Both the position numbers and the translations under genes were made by a program. Below the pieces are notes generated by a model that was given only the letters and a program-made list of their open reading frames with translations, searched no databases and had not been told where the DNA came from. From Acidobacteriaceae bacterium (GTDB taxonomy: Bacteria > Acidobacteriota > Terriglobia > Terriglobales > Acidobacteriaceae), in assembly GCA_025355385.1 (NCBI GenBank), contig JANXZS010000145.1, positions 1 to 39,494 on the forward strand: a DNA stretch of 39,494 nucleotides, written 5' to 3'. Each line of letters opens with the position of its first letter. Position 1 is the first letter of the stretch. Below, piece after piece: positions 25,348 through 39,494 of the stretch.

Positions 25348-26380
25348 TTTCGATCCTCACGGCACCAAGGCATCTATAGTGCTGCTGATCTTGTGGGTTG
25401 CACATGGATGCCTGGCTGAGGGCCTGCCCGCCGACCAGCCTCATGGCAGCGGCCTGCAGGTCGTCTGCAGCCTTGAGCAGCCGGTTGTTTGGGCACAGGG
25501 ACAAGTCTCGGCGGCGGTATTGGTCGCCGCGCCAAAAGGGTCGCGTGTGCGTTATCTGTGGACGGCGACCGCGGGCGGTTTTGTAGCGAAGCCGGGCTCT
25601 CAGGCCAGACTCAACAAGCAGGGCGACGAAGCCAACGTGCAGTGGAGCCCCAACGGGGCTGCCCCAGGCGTCTACACTGTTACGGTGCAGGTCACGGATG
25701 CGACGGGGGCTTCGGGCTCCTGTTCGCTCGACGCTCTAGTCAAGGAAAAGAAGCAACGCCGAGATGCCTCCGATGGCGGCGAGTTAGGCAGCGAAGCGGC
25801 GCGCGCGCTGCTCGTCAAGGGGCGCACAGAGCGCAAGGGTTACGGGCTCTACAGCTACATTCTGTTCGCAGCAAGACCGGATGCAAACAACAGCGATCGA
25901 TTTCACGCGGTGCTGAAGAGCTATCTAAACCTCGAAAACGTGAACCTGGAAGCAAATTTCAGACTCGCACAGCTCAATGTCACGTATGTACCGGTTACCG
26001 CTGCGCCCCAGGAGGATCCTCCGACCCTAATCTCGTTTCTCGCGCAGTATGATTACTCCCGCGCGCGCTTCTTGCTGGCAAGCCTGCCCAGGGAGGAAGG
26101 AGACGGTCCCTTCATCGTCTCGTCAATTTTGCCGCTGCAAGGGCCCGGGACCGAGACGGGACCATATATTATCCAAAATCTTTCGACTGTACCCGTCAGC
26201 GTCATTCCCCTTTGGATGAAGCAGTTCCGAAGCCAGACGACGCAGCAACGAGTCTGGGAGCGGAAAACGATAGGCAATATGGCGCTCGAGCTGCGCACCG
26301 CCATCGCAATTGCTGCGGAAGGTCTTCCCATGGTGCAGAAGGCGGTAAGCTCGTTGATCGTCATCACGCCAACGCCTTGA
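25340..26380 (+). CDS. Secreted PKD-like protein of the TPR-CHAT cassette
   Basis: 346 residues. A hydrophobic N-terminus (ASIVLLILWVAHGCLA) is probably a signal peptide. Residues of about 35-135 look like a PKD/Ig-type beta domain (RYLWTATAGGF, APGVYTVTVQVTDATG). The C-terminal 200 residues (from about YGLYSYILFAARP) are of no family I know. They include a hydrophobic, partly helical end. The start overlaps the previous gene by eight bases, and the stop TGA overlaps the TTG start of the TPR-CHAT gene. A partner role with the CHAT protein is inferred from this coupling. Confidence 0.75.
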   Translation: MSNFDPHGTKASIVLLILWVAHGCLAEGLPADQPHGSGLQVVCSLEQPVVWAQGQVSAAVLVAAPKGSRVRYLWTATAGGFVAKPGSQARLNKQGDEANVQWSPNGAAPGVYTVTVQVTDATGASGSCSLDALVKEKKQRRDASDGGELGSEAARALLVKGRTERKGYGLYSYILFAARPDANNSDRFHAVLKSYLNLENVNLEANFRLAQLNVTYVPVTAAPQEDPPTLISFLAQYDYSRARFLLASLPREEGDGPFIVSSILPLQGPGTETGPYIIQNLSTVPVSVIPLWMKQFRSQTTQQRVWERKTIGNMALELRTAIAIAAEGLPMVQKAVSSLIVITPTP

Positions 26381-29300
26381 AAGCTAACAGAGCAGTATTC
26401 GTGGCTGCATGCCTGCTGGCGACGGTATTGGCAGCGAAGCCACAAACCGGAGCTCCCGCTGGGACCGCCGACGAGGGCGCTCGCGCGGCCAGCCTGATGG
26501 CCGATGGAGCACGATTGGCAGACCAGCGGACCCCGGAAGCATTGCAATCCGCCGTGGCCGCTTTTCAGCAAGCATTGTCACTCTGGCAAAGAGTCGGAGA
26601 CCAAGGCCAGCAAGTGCAAGCATTACTTTCCGCCGCTACAGCACAGTACTTTCTCCACCGAACGGATGAGGCGTTCACTCTCGTGGCTAAAGCCGGAGAG
26701 GTGGCCCGGACGGCTGGCAACCTCGGTTATCAGGCCTCGGCACTCACCAGTGCGGCATTTTTCTACGACGGACTTGGCCAGGAGCAGAAGGCGCTCGAAG
26801 CGGCGGCTCACGGCCAGGATATCTTCCATTCCCTGGGTGATAACGCCAGCGAAGCCCAAATCCTTGCTATGCAAGCGCTCATCTACAGGAAGTTGAAAGA
26901 CACAGCGAAGGCAATCGCCTGCTACGAGCAAAGTCTCCCCCTGTTCCGGGTGAGCAACAACCGCCAAGGGGAAGCCCAGACCTACCTAGGTCTGGCGCAA
27001 TTGAACAGCATCCTGGATCAGCCAGAGGCGTTCGAAAAAGCTATCGGCTACTATACCCAGGCGCTGCCGCTGTTCCAGGCGGGCTCCGACCGGCTGAATG
27101 AGGCATATTCCTGGTGGGGCCTGGGCACCTCGAATGATCGCCTCGGGCGTACTCAACAGGCACGGGACGCTTACCTCAAATCAATTCCGATCTTTACCGA
27201 AAGGAAGGATGACCGCGCACTCGGGCGGGTTTTGCTCAGCCTGGCGGAGGATGAAGACGCCCTGGGGAATTTGCAGAGGGCGATCGATTCCTATCAGCAG
27301 GCCGCGCGGCTCCTGGCCTCGCAGGGTGATGGGCTAAGCCAGGGATTGGCGCTCGTACGCTTGGGTAAGGCGCGCCAGAAACTGGGAAATTCAGCGCAGG
27401 CAATTGAAGCGTTCAAGGCGGCGATAATCGCTTGGCACTCTACGAACGACAAGGCCGGCGAAGCCGCCGCCTCTCTCATAGTCGGCACGGCATACTTCGG
27501 GCTGCATGACTGGAAAGACGCACTGGAAGCAGACGCAGGGGCGCTTAAGCTTTCTGAGAGAATTGGCGATTTTTCAGGCCAGGCCGCGGCGCTCATCGGA
27601 TTGGCCGGTGTCTACTCCAACGTCGGCGACTACGCGAAGGCCCGGGACCTGTCTCTTCGGTCGATATCTTTATTACAAGGGAATCCGGTAGTGGTGCGCA
27701 AGGCAACGGCTCTCATCGTGGCAGGAGAGAGCTACAACGCACTTCACGATAGCGGCAGAGCTCTCGAGTACTTGAACCAGGCACTCCTGCTGGACCAAAA
27801 CAATCCCTCGGCCAAGGCTGGGGTTCTAGCCTCAATGGGCGAAGTCTACAGCGGCATGGGCGACCAGAAAAAGGCGCTGGCGCTGGAGCAAGAGGCCATC
27901 GACATTCTGCGCCCGCTCAACGACCCAGCACCAATCAACAAAGTTTTGAATGACCTTGGACTGATTTATTCCGCTATGGGCAACAAATCGCAGGCTCTGA
28001 CATCCTTCGAGACATCTCTTGCGAGCGCACGGTCGAGAAACGATCTTCAGCAGCAATCGGCAACCCTGAACAATCTGGCACAGACCCATCATGGCTTCGG
28101 CGATACCAAGCAGGCCGAAGCGCTCTACATGGAATCGTTGGCCTTGATTCGTCAGGTCGGAGACCGCTATCAAGAGGCTTCAACGCTTGCAAACCTCGGC
28201 ATGGTGTACCACTCGCTGGGAGACGAGCAAAGGGCCGAGGCTACCCTAAAAGAGTCGCTGTCAATCCACCGCGAGCTAGCCGACCGCCACGGGGAGGCGA
28301 TCGCGTTGAGCAACCTTGCCCTGTTCTACAGCGAAACGGGAGAGCTGCAGAAGGCGCTCGAATCCTACGACCAGGTGCTGGCAATCTTCAAGGATGTTGG
28401 TGATGCCCCCGACCAAGGCACCACTTTGAACAATCTGGGGACTACGTATCGCGCCCTTGGCATGAATGAGCGAGCCCAACTGTACTTCCAGCAGGCGCTC
28501 CGGATCCGTGAGCAAACCAACGATGAGGACGGACGAGCAGTAACTCTCAATAACATGGCGGTCCTTGCACAATCCGGCGGCAAGCCCGACGAGGCGCGGG
28601 AGTATTACCGCCAAGCGCTGCATCTAGCCGAAAAACTGGGGAACCGCGTATTGCAGGCGCGACTGCTCTCCGGCCTTGGCGTTCTCGATAGCGACCTGGG
28701 TGACCAGCACCGGGCGCTCGATCAACTGCAAACTTCTTTAGAGATTGCCCGCCAGACGGGTGACCTCGACAGCGAAGCTTTGGCCCTGCATAACCTCGGC
28801 ACCGTCTACGAAAAGCTTGGCGATATGCCACAGGCACTCGACAAATTTCACCAGGCCATGGCTCTTTGGCACCGGATCAACAGCGTCGAGGGGGAGGCCA
28901 AAACCCTGTACACGATCGCGAAAGTCGAGCGCAAGCAGGGCGATCTGAAGGCAGCTTTGGGTCACGTGGAAGATTCGATCCGCCTGAGCGAGACCTTACG
29001 CAGCCGTCTAGGTAGCGAGGACCTGCGGGCCTCCTTGCTGGCAACGACGGGCAATTCCTACGAGTTGGACGTAGCTATCCTGATGCAATTGGATCAGCTG
29101 CATAAGGGCCAGGGTTTCGATACCAGGGCATTCGAAGCCAGCGAGCGCGCGCGTGCCCGCAGTCTTCTAGACCTGCTCACCGAGTCGCGTGCCAACATTC
29201 GTCAAGGCGTCGATCCGCAACTGCTTGCCCAGGAGCAATCCATCAAGCGGTCGCTCAACGCCAAGGCTCTGCAGCTGCGAAAGTTCCCATCGTCTGAGCA

Positions 29301-30621
29301 AGACAGCGTTGATCGCGAGCGCCAGAATCACGAGATCGAAGAACTGGCCTCTGCTTACGAGGGCGTGGAGGCCCAGATCCGCATCAAGAGTCCCGCCTAC
29401 GCGGCGCTGACTCAACCTCAGCCGCTCACGTTGCGCGAGATTCAGCGCGAACTAGACTCCGATACTCTCCTCCTGGATTACTCGCTAGGCCCGGAGCAAA
29501 GCTACCTCTGGGCCGTTACGCCCACTTCGTTCTTGTCGTATGAGCTGCCGAAACGGGAGATCATAGAAAATGCCGCCCACGAATTTCATGAGCGGCTTCC
29601 CGAGATTGCAAACCCGGAGGGCTTGGAGCAAGCCGCGGCGACGCTTAGTACCATCTTGCTCGGGCCGGTTGCTTCCCACCTCAAAAAGAAGCGCATGATC
29701 ATAGTTAGTGACGGACTGGTGCAGGCACTCGTGCCGTTTTCGGCGCTTCCGGTGCCGTCCGCTCCGAGCGCTAATGCAACGGGAACTCCGCATGTGCTGC
29801 TGATAGCGGACCATGAGATCGTCACCGAAGCATCCGTGTCAGCCATCGCCGCGCTGCGCCGTGAGGTGTCCGGACGCAAGCTGCCGTCGAAAGCAGTGGC
29901 CGTAATAGCCGACCCGGTTTTCGATCTGAATGATGAGCGGCTGATGAATCTTTCTGCTCGGTCGGGCAGGGGTAGTGCAGGTAAAAATCAGCCCGGCGTT
30001 CTGTCTGCGGTGGTGGAGTCTGTGACGCAGGTAACCAGCCTCCAACGTCTGCTGAAGACCCGCGAAGAAGCAAAGAATATCCTTGGGCTCACAACGCCTG
30101 CTCAATCGCTAGCCAGACTGGACTTCGATGCCAGCAAGACCAACGCGGAAAGTCCTGAACTGGGGAGTTACCGCATTGTGCACTTCGCAACCCATGGCGT
30201 TCTTGACCAGGCCCATCCGGAGTTGTCTGGAATAGTGTTTTCACTCTACGATCAGAGGGGTCAAAGCATAGACGGCTTCCTCAGACTGAATGAGATCTTC
30301 AACTTGAAACTGCCGGTACAGCTAGTGGTGCTAAGTGCATGCGAGTCCGGACAGGGCAAACTGGTCGGCAGCGAGGGGCTGGTCGGACTGACGCGAGGCT
30401 TCATGTACGCCGGCGCGGCCACCATGGTGGTTAGCCTTTGGAAGGTCGATGATGCAGCCACCGCCGAGTTGATGACCCGGTTCTATCAGAAGATGCTTGG
30501 CAACGAAACACTGCGTCCCGCCGCAGCGTTGAGAGCATCGCAGCTTTCGATGAGTAACGATACCAAGTGGAAGGACCCATGGTTTTGGGCACCTTTCATC
30601 GTTGAGGGCGAGTGGAGGTGA
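26377..30621 (+). CDS. Secreted TPR-CHAT protein (caspase-like protease predicted)
   Basis: 1,414 residues from TTG 26377, whose TTGA overlaps the previous stop. A signal peptide (VFVAACLLATVLAA) follows this start. About twenty tetratricopeptide repeats fill roughly residues 40-900, recognisable from recurring ALxxLGxxYxxLGxxxxA units. A helical linker follows, with the C-terminal CHAT domain from about 1030. The His-Cys dyad is intact: His1273 in HFATHG and Cys1322 in LSACESG. CHAT domains are caspase-family cysteine proteases, and TPR-CHAT proteins are known in both CRISPR-linked and other contexts. No cas gene or repeat array is present here. An in-frame start further upstream (26212) lies inside the previous gene and lacks the signal. 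Targets are unknown. Confidence 0.93.
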   Translation: MKANRAVFVAACLLATVLAAKPQTGAPAGTADEGARAASLMADGARLADQRTPEALQSAVAAFQQALSLWQRVGDQGQQVQALLSAATAQYFLHRTDEAFTLVAKAGEVARTAGNLGYQASALTSAAFFYDGLGQEQKALEAAAHGQDIFHSLGDNASEAQILAMQALIYRKLKDTAKAIACYEQSLPLFRVSNNRQGEAQTYLGLAQLNSILDQPEAFEKAIGYYTQALPLFQAGSDRLNEAYSWWGLGTSNDRLGRTQQARDAYLKSIPIFTERKDDRALGRVLLSLAEDEDALGNLQRAIDSYQQAARLLASQGDGLSQGLALVRLGKARQKLGNSAQAIEAFKAAIIAWHSTNDKAGEAAASLIVGTAYFGLHDWKDALEADAGALKLSERIGDFSGQAAALIGLAGVYSNVGDYAKARDLSLRSISLLQGNPVVVRKATALIVAGESYNALHDSGRALEYLNQALLLDQNNPSAKAGVLASMGEVYSGMGDQKKALALEQEAIDILRPLNDPAPINKVLNDLGLIYSAMGNKSQALTSFETSLASARSRNDLQQQSATLNNLAQTHHGFGDTKQAEALYMESLALIRQVGDRYQEASTLANLGMVYHSLGDEQRAEATLKESLSIHRELADRHGEAIALSNLALFYSETGELQKALESYDQVLAIFKDVGDAPDQGTTLNNLGTTYRALGMNERAQLYFQQALRIREQTNDEDGRAVTLNNMAVLAQSGGKPDEAREYYRQALHLAEKLGNRVLQARLLSGLGVLDSDLGDQHRALDQLQTSLEIARQTGDLDSEALALHNLGTVYEKLGDMPQALDKFHQAMALWHRINSVEGEAKTLYTIAKVERKQGDLKAALGHVEDSIRLSETLRSRLGSEDLRASLLATTGNSYELDVAILMQLDQLHKGQGFDTRAFEASERARARSLLDLLTESRANIRQGVDPQLLAQEQSIKRSLNAKALQLRKFPSSEQDSVDRERQNHEIEELASAYEGVEAQIRIKSPAYAALTQPQPLTLREIQRELDSDTLLLDYSLGPEQSYLWAVTPTSFLSYELPKREIIENAAHEFHERLPEIANPEGLEQAAATLSTILLGPVASHLKKKRMIIVSDGLVQALVPFSALPVPSAPSANATGTPHVLLIADHEIVTEASVSAIAALRREVSGRKLPSKAVAVIADPVFDLNDERLMNLSARSGRGSAGKNQPGVLSAVVESVTQVTSLQRLLKTREEAKNILGLTTPAQSLARLDFDASKTNAESPELGSYRIVHFATHGVLDQAHPELSGIVFSLYDQRGQSIDGFLRLNEIFNLKLPVQLVVLSACESGQGKLVGSEGLVGLTRGFMYAGAATMVVSLWKVDDAATAELMTRFYQKMLGNETLRPAAALRASQLSMSNDTKWKDPWFWAPFIVEGEWR

Positions 30622-32271: not shown

Positions 32272-32785
32272 TCATACGGGCAGCGAAAGCAGCACGGCGC
32301 TACCGAAAGTGGCGTAAGCGGTGCGCCAGTGGAATTTCATTATGAGTTGGTGTGCGATCAGAGAAAAGGTGATCGCGCCCACGCCTAAGCCAATCATCAT
32401 GAGCCCAGAGCCATGCCTCTACGCTCGTCGAACCATCGCGAGACTACGACCCCGTAGGGTACCGGGGATGTGCCACCAGAAACTAGACCAAGCGCGGCAA
32501 AGAAGAGATACAAATATGCGATGCGCGTGCTGATCAATGCGCTCGAGAGCAAGGTAGACGCAAAAATCAGGTTTCCAATGAGAATGACCCTACGGCCTCC
32601 AAAGCGATGAATCAGTCGACCGAAGAATGGGACGCAAGCGGCGCGACCGGCGTGGAAATACTGGCCAAGAGGTTTGACAAGACACCAAAAGATAAGGCGA
32701 CAATCGGGCCAGTGCTGAAGCACAGCCCGAGTGAAGCGGTAGCTACGATCCACCAGCCGAGAAAGACTCTGGGGCGACGGCTCAT
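32272..32785 (-). pseudogene. MFS transporter remnant with two frameshifts
   Basis: Joining frames on the minus strand gives the N-terminal part of a major facilitator transporter. It starts at 32785 (MSRRPRVFLGWWIVATASLG), followed by ALSFGVLSNLLA. After a frame change near 32620-32640 it reads FFGRLIHRFGGRRVILIG and GVVVSRWFDERRGMALG. After a second change near 32400 it reads LMMIGLGVGAITFSLIAHQL and FHWRTAYATFG, to a stop at 32272. That is about 170 residues of the 400 expected. The RFGGRR and WFDERRG loops are typical of the monocarboxylate-type MFS branch. It is inactive. Confidence 0.75.
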
Positions 32786-32968
32786 CGGATCTCACTCCGC
32801 AAACTTTTATTTCAAGGGCGCGCGCACCGATGAAGTTTAACTACCACGATGCTTACCATCGAGTGCGTTGCGGATCGGAGCCCAGGGGCACCGGACGTAT
32901 GGTCGACGAACCGGAAGTAATCCCGATCCGGTTCGAGCAGATTTGTAAAGGTCTTAGCAAATCATCGA

Positions 32969-32997
32969 TTGCTTCTTCACTATTGCAATGCTATAGT
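32969..32997 (+). promoter_or_regulatory. Promoter candidate for the membrane-pair/DNase II cassette
   Basis: TTGCTT (32969-32974) and TATAGT (32992-32997) are separated by 17 bases. The -10 matches five of six consensus bases, the -35 three. Transcription would begin near 33004, about 20 bases before the first start codon at 33024. Confidence 0.45.
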
Positions 32998-33023: not shown

Positions 33024-33344
33024 ATGGATCCCATCTTTCTCCTCCAACTCGAATTGCATGGCTTTCTTATCTTATTGGCCGCCATCCTGGCCTTCAAGAT
33101 TCTGACGAGACGAATTCGATTGAGTGGATTATTGGCTCGGAAGCAAGATGGCGGACAAATAAGTCCGGAACGACTCCAGTTACTTTTGGTAACAATGGCG
33201 ATGGGCGCGAAGTACCTGAGTTCAGTACTGCACGCGAGCAACGGGGCTATGCCCGACGTGAGCCCAGACTGGTTGTACGTTGTTGGTGGAAGTAGCGGAA
33301 TCTATGCCTCAGTAAAGGCGATCACGACGATAACCAAGAACTAA
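33024..33344 (+). CDS. Small membrane protein, first of a paralogous pair
   Basis: 106 residues. A strongly hydrophobic N-terminal segment (FLILLAAILAFKIL) is followed by a basic patch, a polar loop with GGQISPERLQLLLVT, a second hydrophobic stretch, and a C-terminal Gly/Ser-rich segment ending in YASVKAI. The last 75 residues align with those of the next gene (Q-S-RLQLL-T, then P-PD-L, G-S-YA-KAI). No family is known to me. The ribosome site before ATG 33024 is weak. The next gene begins 18 bases after its stop. Confidence 0.72.
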   Translation: MDPIFLLQLELHGFLILLAAILAFKILTRRIRLSGLLARKQDGGQISPERLQLLLVTMAMGAKYLSSVLHASNGAMPDVSPDWLYVVGGSSGIYASVKAITTITKN

Positions 33345-33362
33345 TTCATGGTGGAGAGATCA

Positions 33363-33809
33363 ATGACTATGATGCAAACAATTTGTGGTTATGGGGTGTG
33401 CCTTTTCATGGGGCTGCTCTGCGCGACCCTATTGTGGATGATCTGGACAGGTAAGATTGACCTCTCCACTTTGCTCACGGAGGCGAACGGACAGGCGAGC
33501 ATGTCACGGCTTCAACTGCTCATCTTCACGCTGGTGGTCGCGATAAGCCTGTTTATCCTGGTTGAGCGCGGTACATCCTTCCCTACGATCCCGGATGGAG
33601 TGCTGACACTGCTCGGCATAAGCGCCAGCACATACGCGGTTGGCAAAGCAATCTCTTACAGCCGCGACGAAGGTGTAACGACTCCGGTTGAACGGGCAAG
33701 CGTAAGAGCGACGGCGCAGGCGCTTTCGGCTACGGGAGCAGCGTCTGTTGTTACCCCTGGAGGCACGGCGTCAACAGGTGCGACTGATACGGGACATCAG
33801 GGCAGCTAA
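33363..33809 (+). CDS. Small membrane protein, second of a paralogous pair
   Basis: 148 residues from ATG 33363, preferred over 33348 because GGTGGAGAG precedes it. Hydrophobic segments lie at VCLFMGLLCATLLWMIW, LLIFTLVVAISLFILV and GVLTLLGISASTYAVGKAI. Between them is QASMSRLQLL, matching the first protein. After the last segment comes a 45-residue Thr/Ala/Gly/Ser-rich tail that the first paralogue lacks. Function is unknown. The DNase II-like gene starts 60 bases downstream on the same strand. Confidence 0.74.
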   Translation: MTMMQTICGYGVCLFMGLLCATLLWMIWTGKIDLSTLLTEANGQASMSRLQLLIFTLVVAISLFILVERGTSFPTIPDGVLTLLGISASTYAVGKAISYSRDEGVTTPVERASVRATAQALSATGAASVVTPGGTASTGATDTGHQGS

Positions 33810-33869
33810 TCATGCGGCTGATCCTCGCGCTTTGATCCTGCGCTCGAGATTGGTTGAAGGGGGAGTGTG

Positions 33870-35282
33870 ATGGCTCCAACTGGGACAGCATCGAAACCAG
33901 GTATCGTCGGTCTCTCGCCAATGACGGCGATCCGGACAATGGGCCCGGCGATTCCCCTTGCAATAGCTCTGCTCCATGGCGCTCTGACCGGCACCACGGC
34001 CAAACCACCGGTTCCTGTGATGCAGCAGAGCGCCACTTCACAGGGCGTTTCTAACGTGAAGTGTGGTGGTGGCACCGTGGACTCGCCCCCATGCACGGCC
34101 CCGTATCCGATGCTGCAGAAGGGGCATCCAGTCGACTGGTGGTTTGTCTTCAAGCTCAATTCAGGTCAGTTTCCAAAGTGCGGCGGGACGGACACGCGAA
34201 CATGCCCATTCGGCGGCTCCGTGCAGACAACTCCTAACTACCTAAATTTTGGGCAACAGTATGTGTATGCGAGCAGCGATGCTGCCACGCTGAAGGATGG
34301 GAGCATGGATTGTCTGGGTACGACGACCGGTGATCCCGTGGGTGCTAGCTTCGACGAGGTATATAACGGCAGTTACCACTATGTTGTGTGGAATGATCAG
34401 CCGTATGGGGATCCTGCAGGCGAATGCAGTGGAAATGGATGCGGTGGGCCTTGGGGTCATTCAAAAGGGATGCTCACGTGGAACGATGCGGGGGAAGGAT
34501 TTGTAATGCAGGTTTCAACGCCTTCGTGGCCACTTTCGGGCTCCGTGAAATTCCCTCGCAAGACAGATGGAAACACGCTGGGATGCGTGAAAGATAACGA
34601 TGTTGAGGTGAGCCAGCACTTCTTCGCCATTCGGTTGAATAAGGGCGATCTTATCCTAGTGCTCGAAGGACTAAATAATGCCAGTGTAGTCACCGATCCC
34701 AAGAATCCACAGCTGGTCAATAACGGAGGGCCGCCGGATGTACAGCAGATTGTGAACGACCTCGGTGTGAAATCTCCTAGTACAACTGTGCTGACGGGAA
34801 TGCTTTCTACGGGCGCAGAGCTTATTTCCAAGCCCTCCAAGCTGGCTGTACCGCCGTGGCAAATGGTTTCTGCTGTGCTGGGAGGTGTTTCGCTGCGTAC
34901 CGCAAACTGGTGGACGAATCCCGATTCTTTGCCGTCCACGACGGCGGATACAAAGATGGGATGCTGGGATGATTCACTCATCAACCCCGGAGCGGTCGAG
35001 ATCGCTACGAGTGGGCACTGGAAAGGGATAGGCTTTGGCCTCAAGGGAGGAGTCAACCCCAATGGCAACCACGCGAAGATCGGCGTGTCTACTTCGGGTA
35101 ATAGCACCTATTCGATTTTTGGAGATATGAACCAGGAAGGCTCGATCAGCGGGACGAACTGCGCGGCGAGCCAGAATGGCCGGGGAGGAATGTTTTTCGT
35201 ACTGAACAACCCTCAGCTTGCGGCGAGCGTCACTGACCTGATCGCGGGAGAGAGCGCGCCGCTGGCGCCTGCTGGGAAATGA
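33870..35282 (+). CDS. DNase II-like endonuclease
   Basis: 470 residues. The DNase II family hallmarks appear in order: PVDWWFVFKL (87-96; animal enzymes have PVDWFVVYKL), NDQP (175-178), the first HxK motif GHSKG (His197, Lys199), a TLGCV stretch, the second HxK motif NHAKIGVS (His401, Lys403), and GDMN (418-421) before a Gly-rich segment. In animal DNase II these motifs form a phospholipase-D-like active site that cuts DNA without metal at acid pH; bacterial homologues are known but uncommon. The N-terminal 60 residues are Pro/Thr-rich with one weak hydrophobic stretch, so export is uncertain. Many Cys residues favour an extracytoplasmic site. GAAGGGGGAG precedes the start (GTG 33867 or ATG 33870). 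Family assignment is from motif recall. Confidence 0.85.
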   Translation: MAPTGTASKPGIVGLSPMTAIRTMGPAIPLAIALLHGALTGTTAKPPVPVMQQSATSQGVSNVKCGGGTVDSPPCTAPYPMLQKGHPVDWWFVFKLNSGQFPKCGGTDTRTCPFGGSVQTTPNYLNFGQQYVYASSDAATLKDGSMDCLGTTTGDPVGASFDEVYNGSYHYVVWNDQPYGDPAGECSGNGCGGPWGHSKGMLTWNDAGEGFVMQVSTPSWPLSGSVKFPRKTDGNTLGCVKDNDVEVSQHFFAIRLNKGDLILVLEGLNNASVVTDPKNPQLVNNGGPPDVQQIVNDLGVKSPSTTVLTGMLSTGAELISKPSKLAVPPWQMVSAVLGGVSLRTANWWTNPDSLPSTTADTKMGCWDDSLINPGAVEIATSGHWKGIGFGLKGGVNPNGNHAKIGVSTSGNSTYSIFGDMNQEGSISGTNCAASQNGRGGMFFVLNNPQLAASVTDLIAGESAPLAPAGK

Positions 35283-36361
35283 CAATAATCTTTTGAGGTA
35301 GACAGATCGAATCGAGGCCACCTCAATTAAAAGTATCCACCTTGAGACCACAATTATGTTGGAAATACGATTTAGGCAGTGTTGATTTACAGATAGGTCT
35401 AGGGAACCCGGCTATGGTTGATGAAAGCTGCGCCGTCCAAACCAAAAATTGCATGGCAACTATTAGTCTCGTAGACGGCACAGTGTCCGTCGGACGACCA
35501 ATGTGGCGGATCAGTCGCAAGCTTTATAACCCCGTAGCTTGCTCCCACCAGCTGTAAATGAGGATTGGCTCCGCTGCGGGGTAGGTCGGTGATTTCAAGC
35601 GGCGAGCCGGAGGCGTTCCGGACTGTGAGGTTTTCCACCAACGCCGGTCCCTCGCTCCCGCATCGCCAATAGCCCGCCCGAGAAGATCGGGCTGCGGACA
35701 ATGCTCAAAGTGTTGCAAAACTCTCAGCTGGGTGTGTACCTCGCACGGCGGAAGCAATGCCTGAGAGCCCGAAAGTGAACCCGGGTCGAAAGAAGATCGG
35801 GGCCAGGTAACAGCGCTCGGGGCGCTAGGGTGTTCCAAAAGGCTGTCTCAGGGTTTAGAACTCTCGGAACGTGCACGAGCAAGCCTCTTGGGAATGCTCT
35901 TCTTGGAGATGCATCTTGGCTCGCAGTCTGCGCTGAACTGCATGACATGTGCAAGCAGGCGTCGAACGTCTACGCGAAGCGAGATTTTAATGGACTGAGC
36001 TAGTACTTGACAGGGCGCGACGCCGACGGGTCAACGCAGACACAGTATCACTGATCAGGCAGCATCTGGCCGCCAGTCTGGCACTGATGCCGTTTACTGA
36101 ATATGGCCCACGGTCGACGGTGAGCATGAGAAAGTTATCAGGGGTTATTGGGAACGAATCTCAGTGAATTCCCCGATTGTGGACTGTGCGTTGCAGTTTG
36201 ATCCTGATAGGTAGAAATGTTGCACGGTGTGCGCGCTAGTAATCACGCACCGCCAGGGATCGACCCCTGTTGACGAAATCATTTCCGCTGAACCATCACT
36301 CTCAGGGGTGGCAATGCGTCCGGTCTCACAAGGGCGGTCTGGTGAGAAAAAGACAATCTGT
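35283..36361. other. Long region without intact gene after the DNase II-like gene
   Basis: About 1.1 kb. A loose inverted repeat TTGAGGT/ACCTCAA (35293-35299, 35320-35326) may end the cassette transcript. On the minus strand, 35701-35399 reads ENLTVRNASGSPLEITDL and GAN further on. This recalls one Ig-like repeat of acidobacterial surface proteins but is fragmentary, with broken frames on both sides. Nothing else is recognisable, and the stretch looks like decayed accessory DNA. Confidence 0.4.
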
Positions 36362-36634
36362 ATGACCGTAGTACGTATGCCAGATCACAGTGATCTGGTC
36401 GCTCGTATAGAGAGCGTCACCGGGAAAAAGCCGTTCAACATCCTAGTGGAGCTCGCATCTGTAAGAGGACTCATGACGGTTGAGGAGGTAGCTCTACTCC
36501 TTCGCAAGTCGGAGTCCACGATCTACCGCATGGCTCAGAAGCGACGTATGCCGTCTCTCATGATCAGCGGTTGACGGATGTTCGATCCTTCGGCTCTCGC
36601 CTTGTAGCTAGTAAAGAAGGCTCCAACCGGCCTG
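36362..36634 (+). pseudogene. Excisionase/HTH_17-type DNA-binding protein with stop codons
   Basis: From ATG 36362, 70 codons are open and include LMTVEEVALLLRKSESTIYR and KRRMPSLMI, the standard helix-turn-helix of excisionase-like proteins. A TGA at 36572-36574 interrupts the wing. The same frame continues with RMFDPSALAL, which is the expected FDP-ALA-W ending. It meets a TAG (36605-36607) where a Trp codon is expected, then LVKK. It is therefore read as a gene with two nonsense changes. It converges on the integrase fragment. Confidence 0.65.
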
Positions 36635-36874
36635 CAGCCGCCAGGTGTCGAGCGCCTCGCGCGGGGAGGAGCCTACCGGACACGTCACTCGCTTCCCGTC
36701 TTCCCGCCAGCAGAGGTAGTACGTTCCGGTCTTTGACCGCTCGGGTTTACTGTGGATCAGGACGAGTTCCGGATTCGGCTTTCCCTTGACTTTCACGACC
36801 GGGAAGGATTGCCATTTTCCGTCCAGCGCGAGATACTTCAGCAGGTTCACTTTTGAACCGAGCTTACGAGCCAT
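36608..36874 (-). pseudogene. Truncated integrase (tyrosine recombinase N-terminus)
   Basis: 88 residues from ATG 36874: MARKLGSKVNLLKYLALDG, a VVKVKGKPNP stretch, GTYYLCWREDGKRV and GSSPREALDTWRLQ. This is the arm-binding N-terminus of phage-type integrases as seen in acidobacterial genomes. The core-binding and catalytic domains (Arg-His-Arg-Tyr) are missing, because the frame ends where it meets the convergent HTH remnant. It has lost recombinase activity. Family identity is recalled from the pattern and is less certain than for full-length genes. Confidence 0.6.
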
Positions 36875-37223: not shown

Positions 37224-37707
37224 GCAGGGTGTCGATTCAGGGCCCGCGATCGGTCAACATCGTTCTCAGGTACGCACCAAGATTTACGTCCATGATGTGT
37301 CTCTAGAGAGGTCGCTTCGGGTCGGTGATTGAGGCTCGCGGTCTGACTTCGCGGGCCGGGCGGAACCCGATGACGCCTTCATGTGAATGCATTGCATAAA
37401 GGCGGGGCGGCATGAGGGATTCCTGGCGGCTGTTCTTGGAAGAACCGTGCTGGCGCACAACCCATGGAGCGGTACTATCCAACTTGCTCGATCCCGCAAT
37501 TGTAACGAGCGTCACAGACGAGCTTTCAATCAAGAGTTAACCTACGCTCTGCCCAGCGCAGCGTAGGCCGGGACTATCTTGATCTTTCGACATGATGACA
37601 TCGGCGTATTGAAGGGCAGTATAGGATTCCGCAAGGATTTATGTTTACCACGAATTTATCGCCGAGTGAGCCTCTGCTCAACGGTCCACATGCAAGGAGC
37701 ACCATCA
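37224..37707. other. Intergenic region before the Kelch gene
   Basis: About 480 bases. Minus-strand open frames at 37303-37533 have no recognisable domain or ribosome site. A perfect eight-base stem CCTACGCT/AGCGTAGG (37541-37548, 37560-37567) with an 11-base loop stands upstream of the Kelch gene. It has no T run and may be structural or regulatory. Confidence 0.4.
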
Positions 37708-39494
37708 TTGAATTCTCTCGATAATAGGCTCTCACTACTTGGGGTATGTCTCTCGGCGTTTGTCGTGTGCCTCATTTGCCCGGTTGCGCCGGCGCAGACA
37801 AACGAATGGGTTTGGATGGGCGGGAGCAATACCATTTCAAACAGTGCTAGCGGTGGGCAACTGGGAGTCTACGGCACATTTCGAGTGCCGGCACGTTCAA
37901 ATACTCCTGGTGGTAGGCAACAGGCATCGAGTTGGACGGACAACAATGGCAACTTCTGGCTGTTTGGAGGGTTTGGATTCGCTTCAAATGGTTCCGGCGA
38001 TCTAAACGATCTTTGGGAGCGCAATGCATTCACAGGAGAATGGGCGTGGATGAGTGGAAGCAGTGACTTTTCCAATGGTAATTACGGCAGTCCCGGCGTC
38101 TACGGCTCATTAGGCGTCCCCAACGTTAGGAATGTACCTGGGGGTCGAAGGGGTGCAAGCGGGGCAGTAGACCACAACGGGAAGATCTGGCTTTTTGGAG
38201 GCCTCGGCTATGGTGATGTGGTCTACGAACCGGCGGACTACAATCAGAATGATCTTTGGGAATTCGACCCTTCAACCAATCAATGGACTTGGCTGTCGGG
38301 GGGCGAAATCCGGAGGTAGTCGGGGTGTATGTGGCTCCCTGGGTGTCGCGGCTCCCGGAAATGTTCCTGGGGCCCGATCCGGCGCCAGCAGTTGGATCGA
38401 CGGCAGCGGCAACTTTTGGCTCTTTGGCGGCAAAGGCATCGATTGCGGCGGGACAATTGGATATCTCAATGACCTCTGGGAGTTCAGCTCATCAACTAGT
38501 AACTGGACATGGATGGGCGGTCTAAGCGATATCTCGAGGCACTGTGACTCGCACATTGGTCCTGTCTGTGGTGCACCGGGGATTTATGGCACTCTGGGTG
38601 TTCCGTCGTCGGCGAATATACCAGGAGGACGCTTGAGCGCAAGCGCATCGATCGACCGAGATGGGAATTTTTGGCTATTCGGAGGAAATGGCTTTGATGC
38701 GAATGGCGCGATGGACCGTGGGCAGAACACGACTTCGTGTTCTCAACTAGGAGGCACGTGCCTTCTCAATGACCTCTGGGAGTTCAATCCTCTGACGCAC
38801 GAATGGGTTTGGATGGGTGGGACGGACGTCGTCCGATCGAACTATCCCGGCCAAACTGGAGTCTACGGTACCTTGGGAAGTTCTGCACCCAAGAACATTC
38901 CCGGGGGACGATCAGAGGCCATCTGTTGGGCAGATCATGGCAATCTCTGGTTATACGGCGGATCAGGTTACGATTCCACTTCCGCCGAAGGAGCAAAGAG
39001 GCTCAATGACCTCTGGAAATACCAGATTTCTTCAGCCGAATGGGCGTGGATGGGCGGCACCAACACCGTTGGGCTCACGGGATTGGTTCCGACGGTATAT
39101 GGATCTTTAGGTGTTGCTGATGTGGCGAATACGCCAGGAAGCCGCGTCAACTCGAGCGCTTGGTTCGATATTAGTGGCAATCTCTGGCTCTTCGGGGGAT
39201 ATGCACTAGACTCGACAGGCTATCGAGGAAATCTTAACGACCTATGGGAGTATCGGCTGTCTACAGTGTTACCTGGAACAGCTGCTCCGATCTGTAATCC
39301 TGCGGCAGGCGATTATAGTGCACCGCAGGTAGTTTCGATCTTGGACCAAACTCCAGGCGCTATCATCTACTACACGACTGATGGCTCTACGCCGACCTCC
39401 AATTCAACGCTGTACAGCGGCCCGGTCACGGTGTCCTCGACACAGACCATCCAGGCAATAGCCACTGCGCAGGGGTACTCAACCAGCGCAGTGG
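37708..39494 (+). pseudogene. Secreted Kelch-repeat protein, frame-interrupted, running off the window
   Basis: Start TTG 37708 has AAGGAG eight bases upstream and leads straight into a signal peptide (LSLLGVCLSAFVVCLICP, cleavage near APAQ). About 70-residue repeats follow, each with a W-W-M/L-GG strand, GVYG-LGV, N-PGGR, GN-WLFGG and LNDLWE, the acidobacterial Kelch pattern. The frame stops at 38317-38319. The plus-one frame then continues the same repeats without a stop to the window end, with GSLGVAAPGNVPGARSGASS and four or more further repeats. It ends in a chitobiase/hexosaminidase-type C-terminal domain (IIYYTTDGSTPT, YSGPVTV). The shift falls at six G (38298-38303); five G would restore the frame. 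It is thus one gene with a single slip, by mutation, phase variation or read error. Confidence 0.82.

Follow-up and report, generated by a model that had tools for sequence, protein, structure and literature searches.

The window, a contiguous stretch of 39,494 nucleotides, carries the gene of a 470-residue DNase II-like protein close behind the genes of two small membrane proteins. The question raised by this locus is what such a membrane pair does for a nuclease and where the nuclease works. To our knowledge, bacterial DNase II enzymes are little studied. We consider it somewhat probable (about 0.55) that the pair belongs to one operon with an exported acid DNase II and holds it at the cytoplasmic membrane through an N-terminal element of the nuclease, with an exchangeable cargo and a role in nutrition.

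The three open reading frames were found where the sequence-only reading had placed them (Table 1), and the locus would be a three-gene operon in the order TM1, TM2, and cargo. The start of TM2 was placed at 33363, which is probably correct because GGTGGAGAG stands before the ATG there (read by eye). A GTG start at 33867 lies one codon before the ATG of the nuclease. The promoter candidate proposed earlier at 32969-32997 was not recovered; the sigma-70 scan was silent there and gave its sole match at 35342-35371, and the counts of predicted sigma-70 promoters and terminators were no higher than chance.

Table 1. Positions of the cassette features in the window and of c1 family proteins in other contigs (contig given before the colon).
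Feature	Position	Strand	Description
TM1, membrane protein	33024..33344	+	106 aa; first of the two paralogues; a single SxxRxQ...T...P...GxS..Y..K repeat
TM2, second paralogue	33363..33809	+	ORF opens at 33348 (33348-33809, 153 aa); same repeat and a charged C-terminal tail
DNase II-family nuclease, cargo gene	33870..35282	+	470 aa from the ATG; PF03265 match; predicted fold matches 5I3E
N-terminal element TAIRTMGPAIPLAIALLHGALTG	33924..33992	+	residues 19-41; common to other pair-linked cargoes
DNase_II domain	34116..35243	+	Pfam profile match
HxK motif 1, His197-Ser-Lys199	34458..34466	+	His and Lys invariant in 32 relatives; aligns to HCK of L046
HxK motif 2, His401-Ala-Lys403	35070..35078	+	invariant in 32 relatives; aligns to HAK of L046
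c1 family proteins	L080:7540-8394, L079:7885-8802, L111:5854-6753, L140:3110-4057		conserved DxH...E.P...G.LF.D..H...E.HPV

Just upstream of the cassette, on the minus strand, a 132-residue ORF (32397-32795) looked by eye like the N-terminal portion of an MFS transporter and is possibly a gene remnant. Further upstream, a large TPR-CHAT protein (26212-30621) was recognized by its TPR_12 and CHAT Pfam matches; a CHAT protein is likewise encoded near a gene of the TM1/TM2 family on a Sinorhizobium plasmid (L126). Just downstream of the cassette, the protein at 36227-36574 had an excisionase-type HTH_17 domain at its end, and on the opposite strand an ORF of 88 residues (36608-36874) resembled an integrase N-terminal fragment by eye; these resemblances suggest mobile-element remnants. 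A Kelch-repeat protein (37579-39494) was split between two frames that overlap (37579-38319 and from 38195 on), which looks like a frameshift within one gene.

The assignment of the 470-residue protein to DNase II was confirmed by the Pfam profile. PF03265 matched residues 84-459 (numbered from the GTG start) with 68.5 bits against a curated cut-off of 23 and an E-value of 7.7e-19. The two HxK motifs, His197/Lys199 and His401/Lys403 (numbered from the ATG), were exactly as first described, one in each half of the protein, and the PVDW, NDQP, and GDMN motifs were all present. In an alignment of 32 sequences, with relatives 52-64% identical, both HxK motifs were invariant and about six cysteines were near-invariant, which suggests an oxidising compartment.

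Searches of the PDB sequences with the nuclease, by phmmer and by profile, gave no match, and its kinship to the known structures was visible by fold only. The AlphaFold2 model had a mean pLDDT of 77, with residues 1-62 below 50, and its best PDB match was the DNase II of Burkholderia thailandensis (PDB code 5I3E), with a Foldseek E-value of 3e-13. When the model was superposed on 5I3E with VIA-align, 298 residues were aligned with a Z of 28.9 and an rmsd of 3.1, and the runner-up structures were the lysosomal PLD3 and PLD4 with a Z of 11. Both HxK motifs were located inside one predicted DNase II/phospholipase D-type fold, and, judging from the match to 5I3E, they would meet in one active site. 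Since the sequence profile and the predicted fold agree, membership in the DNase II family is solid, and catalytic activity is putative. The nuclease is an additional member of an already known family, whose occurrence in eubacteria has been published (PMC5982838).

The family, as described for the porcine enzyme (PMC11430429), has an acid pH optimum and 3'-phosphate products, and of its two HxK histidines one is the nucleophile on the DNA phosphate and the other the acid/base; porcine His132 is reported as crucial, together with His115 and His297. A typical DNase II of the same phylum (G286, Acidobacteriota; L046:1486-2526) was far nearer to the Pfam profile than the window protein, with an E-value of 1.5e-77. 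In a profile comparison of the two, the HxK motifs aligned as listed in Table 1, and GDMN aligned with ADIN. The histidine of this protein in LLHSTP, just before the STP motif, was placed at V215 of the window protein, beside the invariant Q214, in one alignment, and may be the counterpart of porcine His132.

The two membrane proteins were paralogous, as had been claimed; profiles seeded from TM1 or TM2 each retrieved the other and converged on one family. Pfam gave no match for either protein, and the family is without a Pfam model. Residues Q56, T61, P79, G90, S92, Y96, and K100 (TM2 numbering) were invariant in the family, and about three hydrophobic segments were seen in each protein by hydropathy and inspection. 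A fused form of about 250-285 residues, with both repeats in one chain, was found in Burkholderiales and Phenylobacterium, and TM1 and TM2 would be a split version of such a two-repeat membrane protein. Larger members of the wider family (380-800 aa) had additional extracytoplasmic-looking domains. The neighbours of the wider family included phosphoesterase, subtilase, haloperoxidase, chitosanase, CHAT, and SpoIIE-like genes, and therefore the function of the family itself may differ from cargo holding. A fold assignment for the fused membrane protein was dropped, its model having a pLDDT of 69.9 and no PDB match at an E-value of 0.001.

The small size of TM1 and TM2, their hydrophobic segments, and their tandem position before a secreted-type hydrolase would also fit holin-like channels through which the nuclease leaves the cell, but this is very improbable, given the specific invariant polar residues and the large multidomain members of the wider family. 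In addition, neither TM1 and TM2 nor their fused version had a convincing PHROG match, and the searches found no phage or viral relatives. The viral and plasmid searches returned no relative of the DNase and one distant membrane relative, which was located on the Sinorhizobium plasmid.

The arrangement of TM1, TM2, and DNase II recurred in other genomes. Among 44 DNase II loci in genome contigs, a gene of the membrane family was immediately adjacent in nine. The pair was upstream of DNase II in L002, L010, L020, and L023, including other Acidobacteriota, and the fused two-repeat protein was downstream in L031, L036, L038, and L044 and upstream in L037. By lineage, the fused protein was downstream of DNase II in Burkholderiales and upstream in Phenylobacterium. 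Further loci with the pair and DNase II were found in G249, G724, and G632. The gene order had changed while adjacency was retained, which argues for a functional link between the pair and DNase II. The remaining 35 of the 44 loci had no adjacent membrane gene. Thus the nuclease can do without it, and the idea that the membrane pair is a required immunity protein was set aside.

DNase II had been called sparse in bacteria. This held for the host phylum, where four of 396 genomes had PF03265 and the congener sampled did not, but DNase II was also met in Pseudomonadota, Desulfuromonadales, Syntrophobacterales, and a Candidatus Scalindua bin. The membrane family was present in 19 of the 396 genomes, including all four with DNase II (p = 8e-5 with the window's own genome left out, a value that ignores kinship). 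It was also present in 17 of the 41 genomes reached via DNase II loci.

DNase II is not the only cargo of the membrane pair, which precedes a second protein, termed c1, as well. In G075 and G084 the pair was followed by c1 instead of DNase II, and G420 supplied a third pair-c1 cassette (L111:4993-6753). A search of 379 genomes of the class with TM2 only gave four further pair loci, in which the cargo was DNase II in G724 and G632 and c1 in G564. The cargo of G593, with 263 residues and the pattern DxH...E.P...G.xxFD..H...ExHPV, was judged by eye to be a probable distant relative of c1. In G418 (L112) the pair was present with no recognised cargo. The 14 pair loci were thus divided into eight with DNase II, four with c1, one with the probable c1 relative, and one without recognised cargo. 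The tree of the pair had two clades (support 100) with both cargo types in each, and the pair-linked DNases fell in two separate clades of the DNase tree. In the 396 genomes, c1 was present in 20, seven of which shared it with the membrane family (p = 9e-6, likewise ignoring kinship). No Pfam family was found for c1, and a PDB profile search was empty.

Most of the pair-linked cargoes, of either type, shared an N-terminal element of about 20 residues with the consensus R-T/R/K-x-G/A-P-x-x-P-L/V/I-A-x-A/G-L. A profile built solely from the N-termini of six pair-linked DNases was used to search the N-termini of 3,924 ORFs. Below its own six seeds, it ranked the c1 proteins linked to the pair in G084 (1.2e-9) and G420 (0.0027), followed by the next ORF at 0.45. 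It retrieved no DNase II without the pair among these ORFs, and it missed the c1 cargo of G075. At the four later pair loci, three of the four cargoes matched (6.7e-9, 1.3e-4, and 0.0039), and at an E-value of 0.05 the profile hit none of the other ORFs with 80 aa or more. The c1 protein of L095, located beside a fused membrane protein, had an ordinary signal peptide by eye, as did most DNases without the pair. Because the profile matches were pair-linked and the trees mixed the cargo types, the element travels with the pair rather than with the enzyme. As far as our searches show, a cassette of a split membrane pair, an exchangeable cargo, and a common N-terminal element is undescribed; the family libraries searched gave no name for the membrane family, the element, or the c1 domain.

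The pair-linked cargoes had no obvious cleavable signal peptide, which counts against a held, exported cargo. A simpler account, in which the protein is an ordinary secreted acid DNase with a signal peptide at its N-terminus and the neighbouring membrane pair serves some unrelated purpose, is rather unlikely. It agrees with most DNase II relatives, in which ordinary signal peptides of the Sec or lipoprotein kind were seen by eye and a membrane partner was absent. However, the element tracked the pair and not the DNase tree: L010 and L023 carried it, whereas their close relatives L011, L026, and L028 had ordinary signal peptides. The recurrence of the pair or the fused form beside DNase II in several lineages, in either gene order, also argues against an unrelated neighbour.

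The neighbours of other DNase II genes were informative about the role. An RNase T2-DNase II fusion was encoded in a Desulfuromonadales bin (L009:4437-6503), and an RNase T2 gene was adjacent to DNase II in L032. An S1/P1 nuclease gene was nearby on the opposite strand in L031, L033, and L041, and a histidine acid phosphatase gene adjoined DNase II in L029. These neighbours favour the digestion of nucleic acid outside the cytoplasm. The genera of the closest named relatives, Acidicapsa and Granulicella, are commonly regarded as acid-soil bacteria, and so an acid nuclease fits. Tle1-like phospholipase genes (L004, L006, and L011), a TIR gene (L011), and a patatin gene (L013) were also located near DNase II. 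Together with the CHAT protein near the membrane-family member of Sinorhizobium, they would suit a conflict or self-killing module, with the nuclease or c1 acting as a toxic effector and the pair serving as its delivery route, a pore, or an immunity factor. The phospholipase-effector-like genes beside the three DNase II relatives are ambiguous in themselves, and such a module is unlikely, because PADLOC at an E-value of 0.1 gave no match for TM1, TM2, the DNase, the fused membrane protein, or c1, and the nuclease and phosphatase neighbours indicate catabolism. Of the functions first suggested, a nuclease used at or outside the membrane is still the likeliest reading, and defence or competition found little support, with PADLOC silent and no viral relative found.

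In the preferred reading of a membrane-held nuclease, the cargo is a DNase II-family nuclease of phospholipase D fold, and TM1 and TM2 would recognise the short hydrophobic N-terminal element, so that the cargo is held or assembled at the cytoplasmic membrane with its catalytic domain facing the periplasm. The pair would be a general holder, whose cargo slot has been swapped between DNase II and the unrelated c1 domain, and the likeliest role here would be to gain nutrients in an acidic habitat by digesting nucleic acid outside the cell or in the periplasm. A wider and more tentative possibility is that TM1/TM2 and the fused proteins related to them are an undescribed bacterial module, which would use a short N-terminal docking element to capture exported enzymes and would display interchangeable cargo, acid nuclease or c1, at the cytoplasmic membrane across phyla. 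The work defined the membrane protein family together with the N-terminal element and the cargo domain c1, and a conserved membrane partner whose cargo can be exchanged offers a concrete starting point for learning where bacterial DNase II enzymes work. Should the element prove to be a docking tag, bacteria would have a new means of placing enzymes at the membrane.

When compared with the DNase II family (PF03265; PDB codes 5I3E and 5UNB), the window protein shared the profile match, both HxK motifs, and the fold over 298 residues. However, it was only 17% identical to 5I3E, its N-terminal element and linker took up about 80 residues, and in one alignment the pre-STP histidine of the typical L046 enzyme was replaced by V215. 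The RNase T2-DNase II fusion of L009 and the gene pair of L032 combine a DNase II of the same subfamily with a second secreted nuclease, but the membrane pair is absent from them. The two-repeat membrane proteins of Acidobacteriota, Burkholderiales, and rhizobia (250-480 aa) have two TM1/TM2 repeats in one chain, whereas in the window the repeats are separate genes and their order relative to the nuclease differs from that in Burkholderiales.
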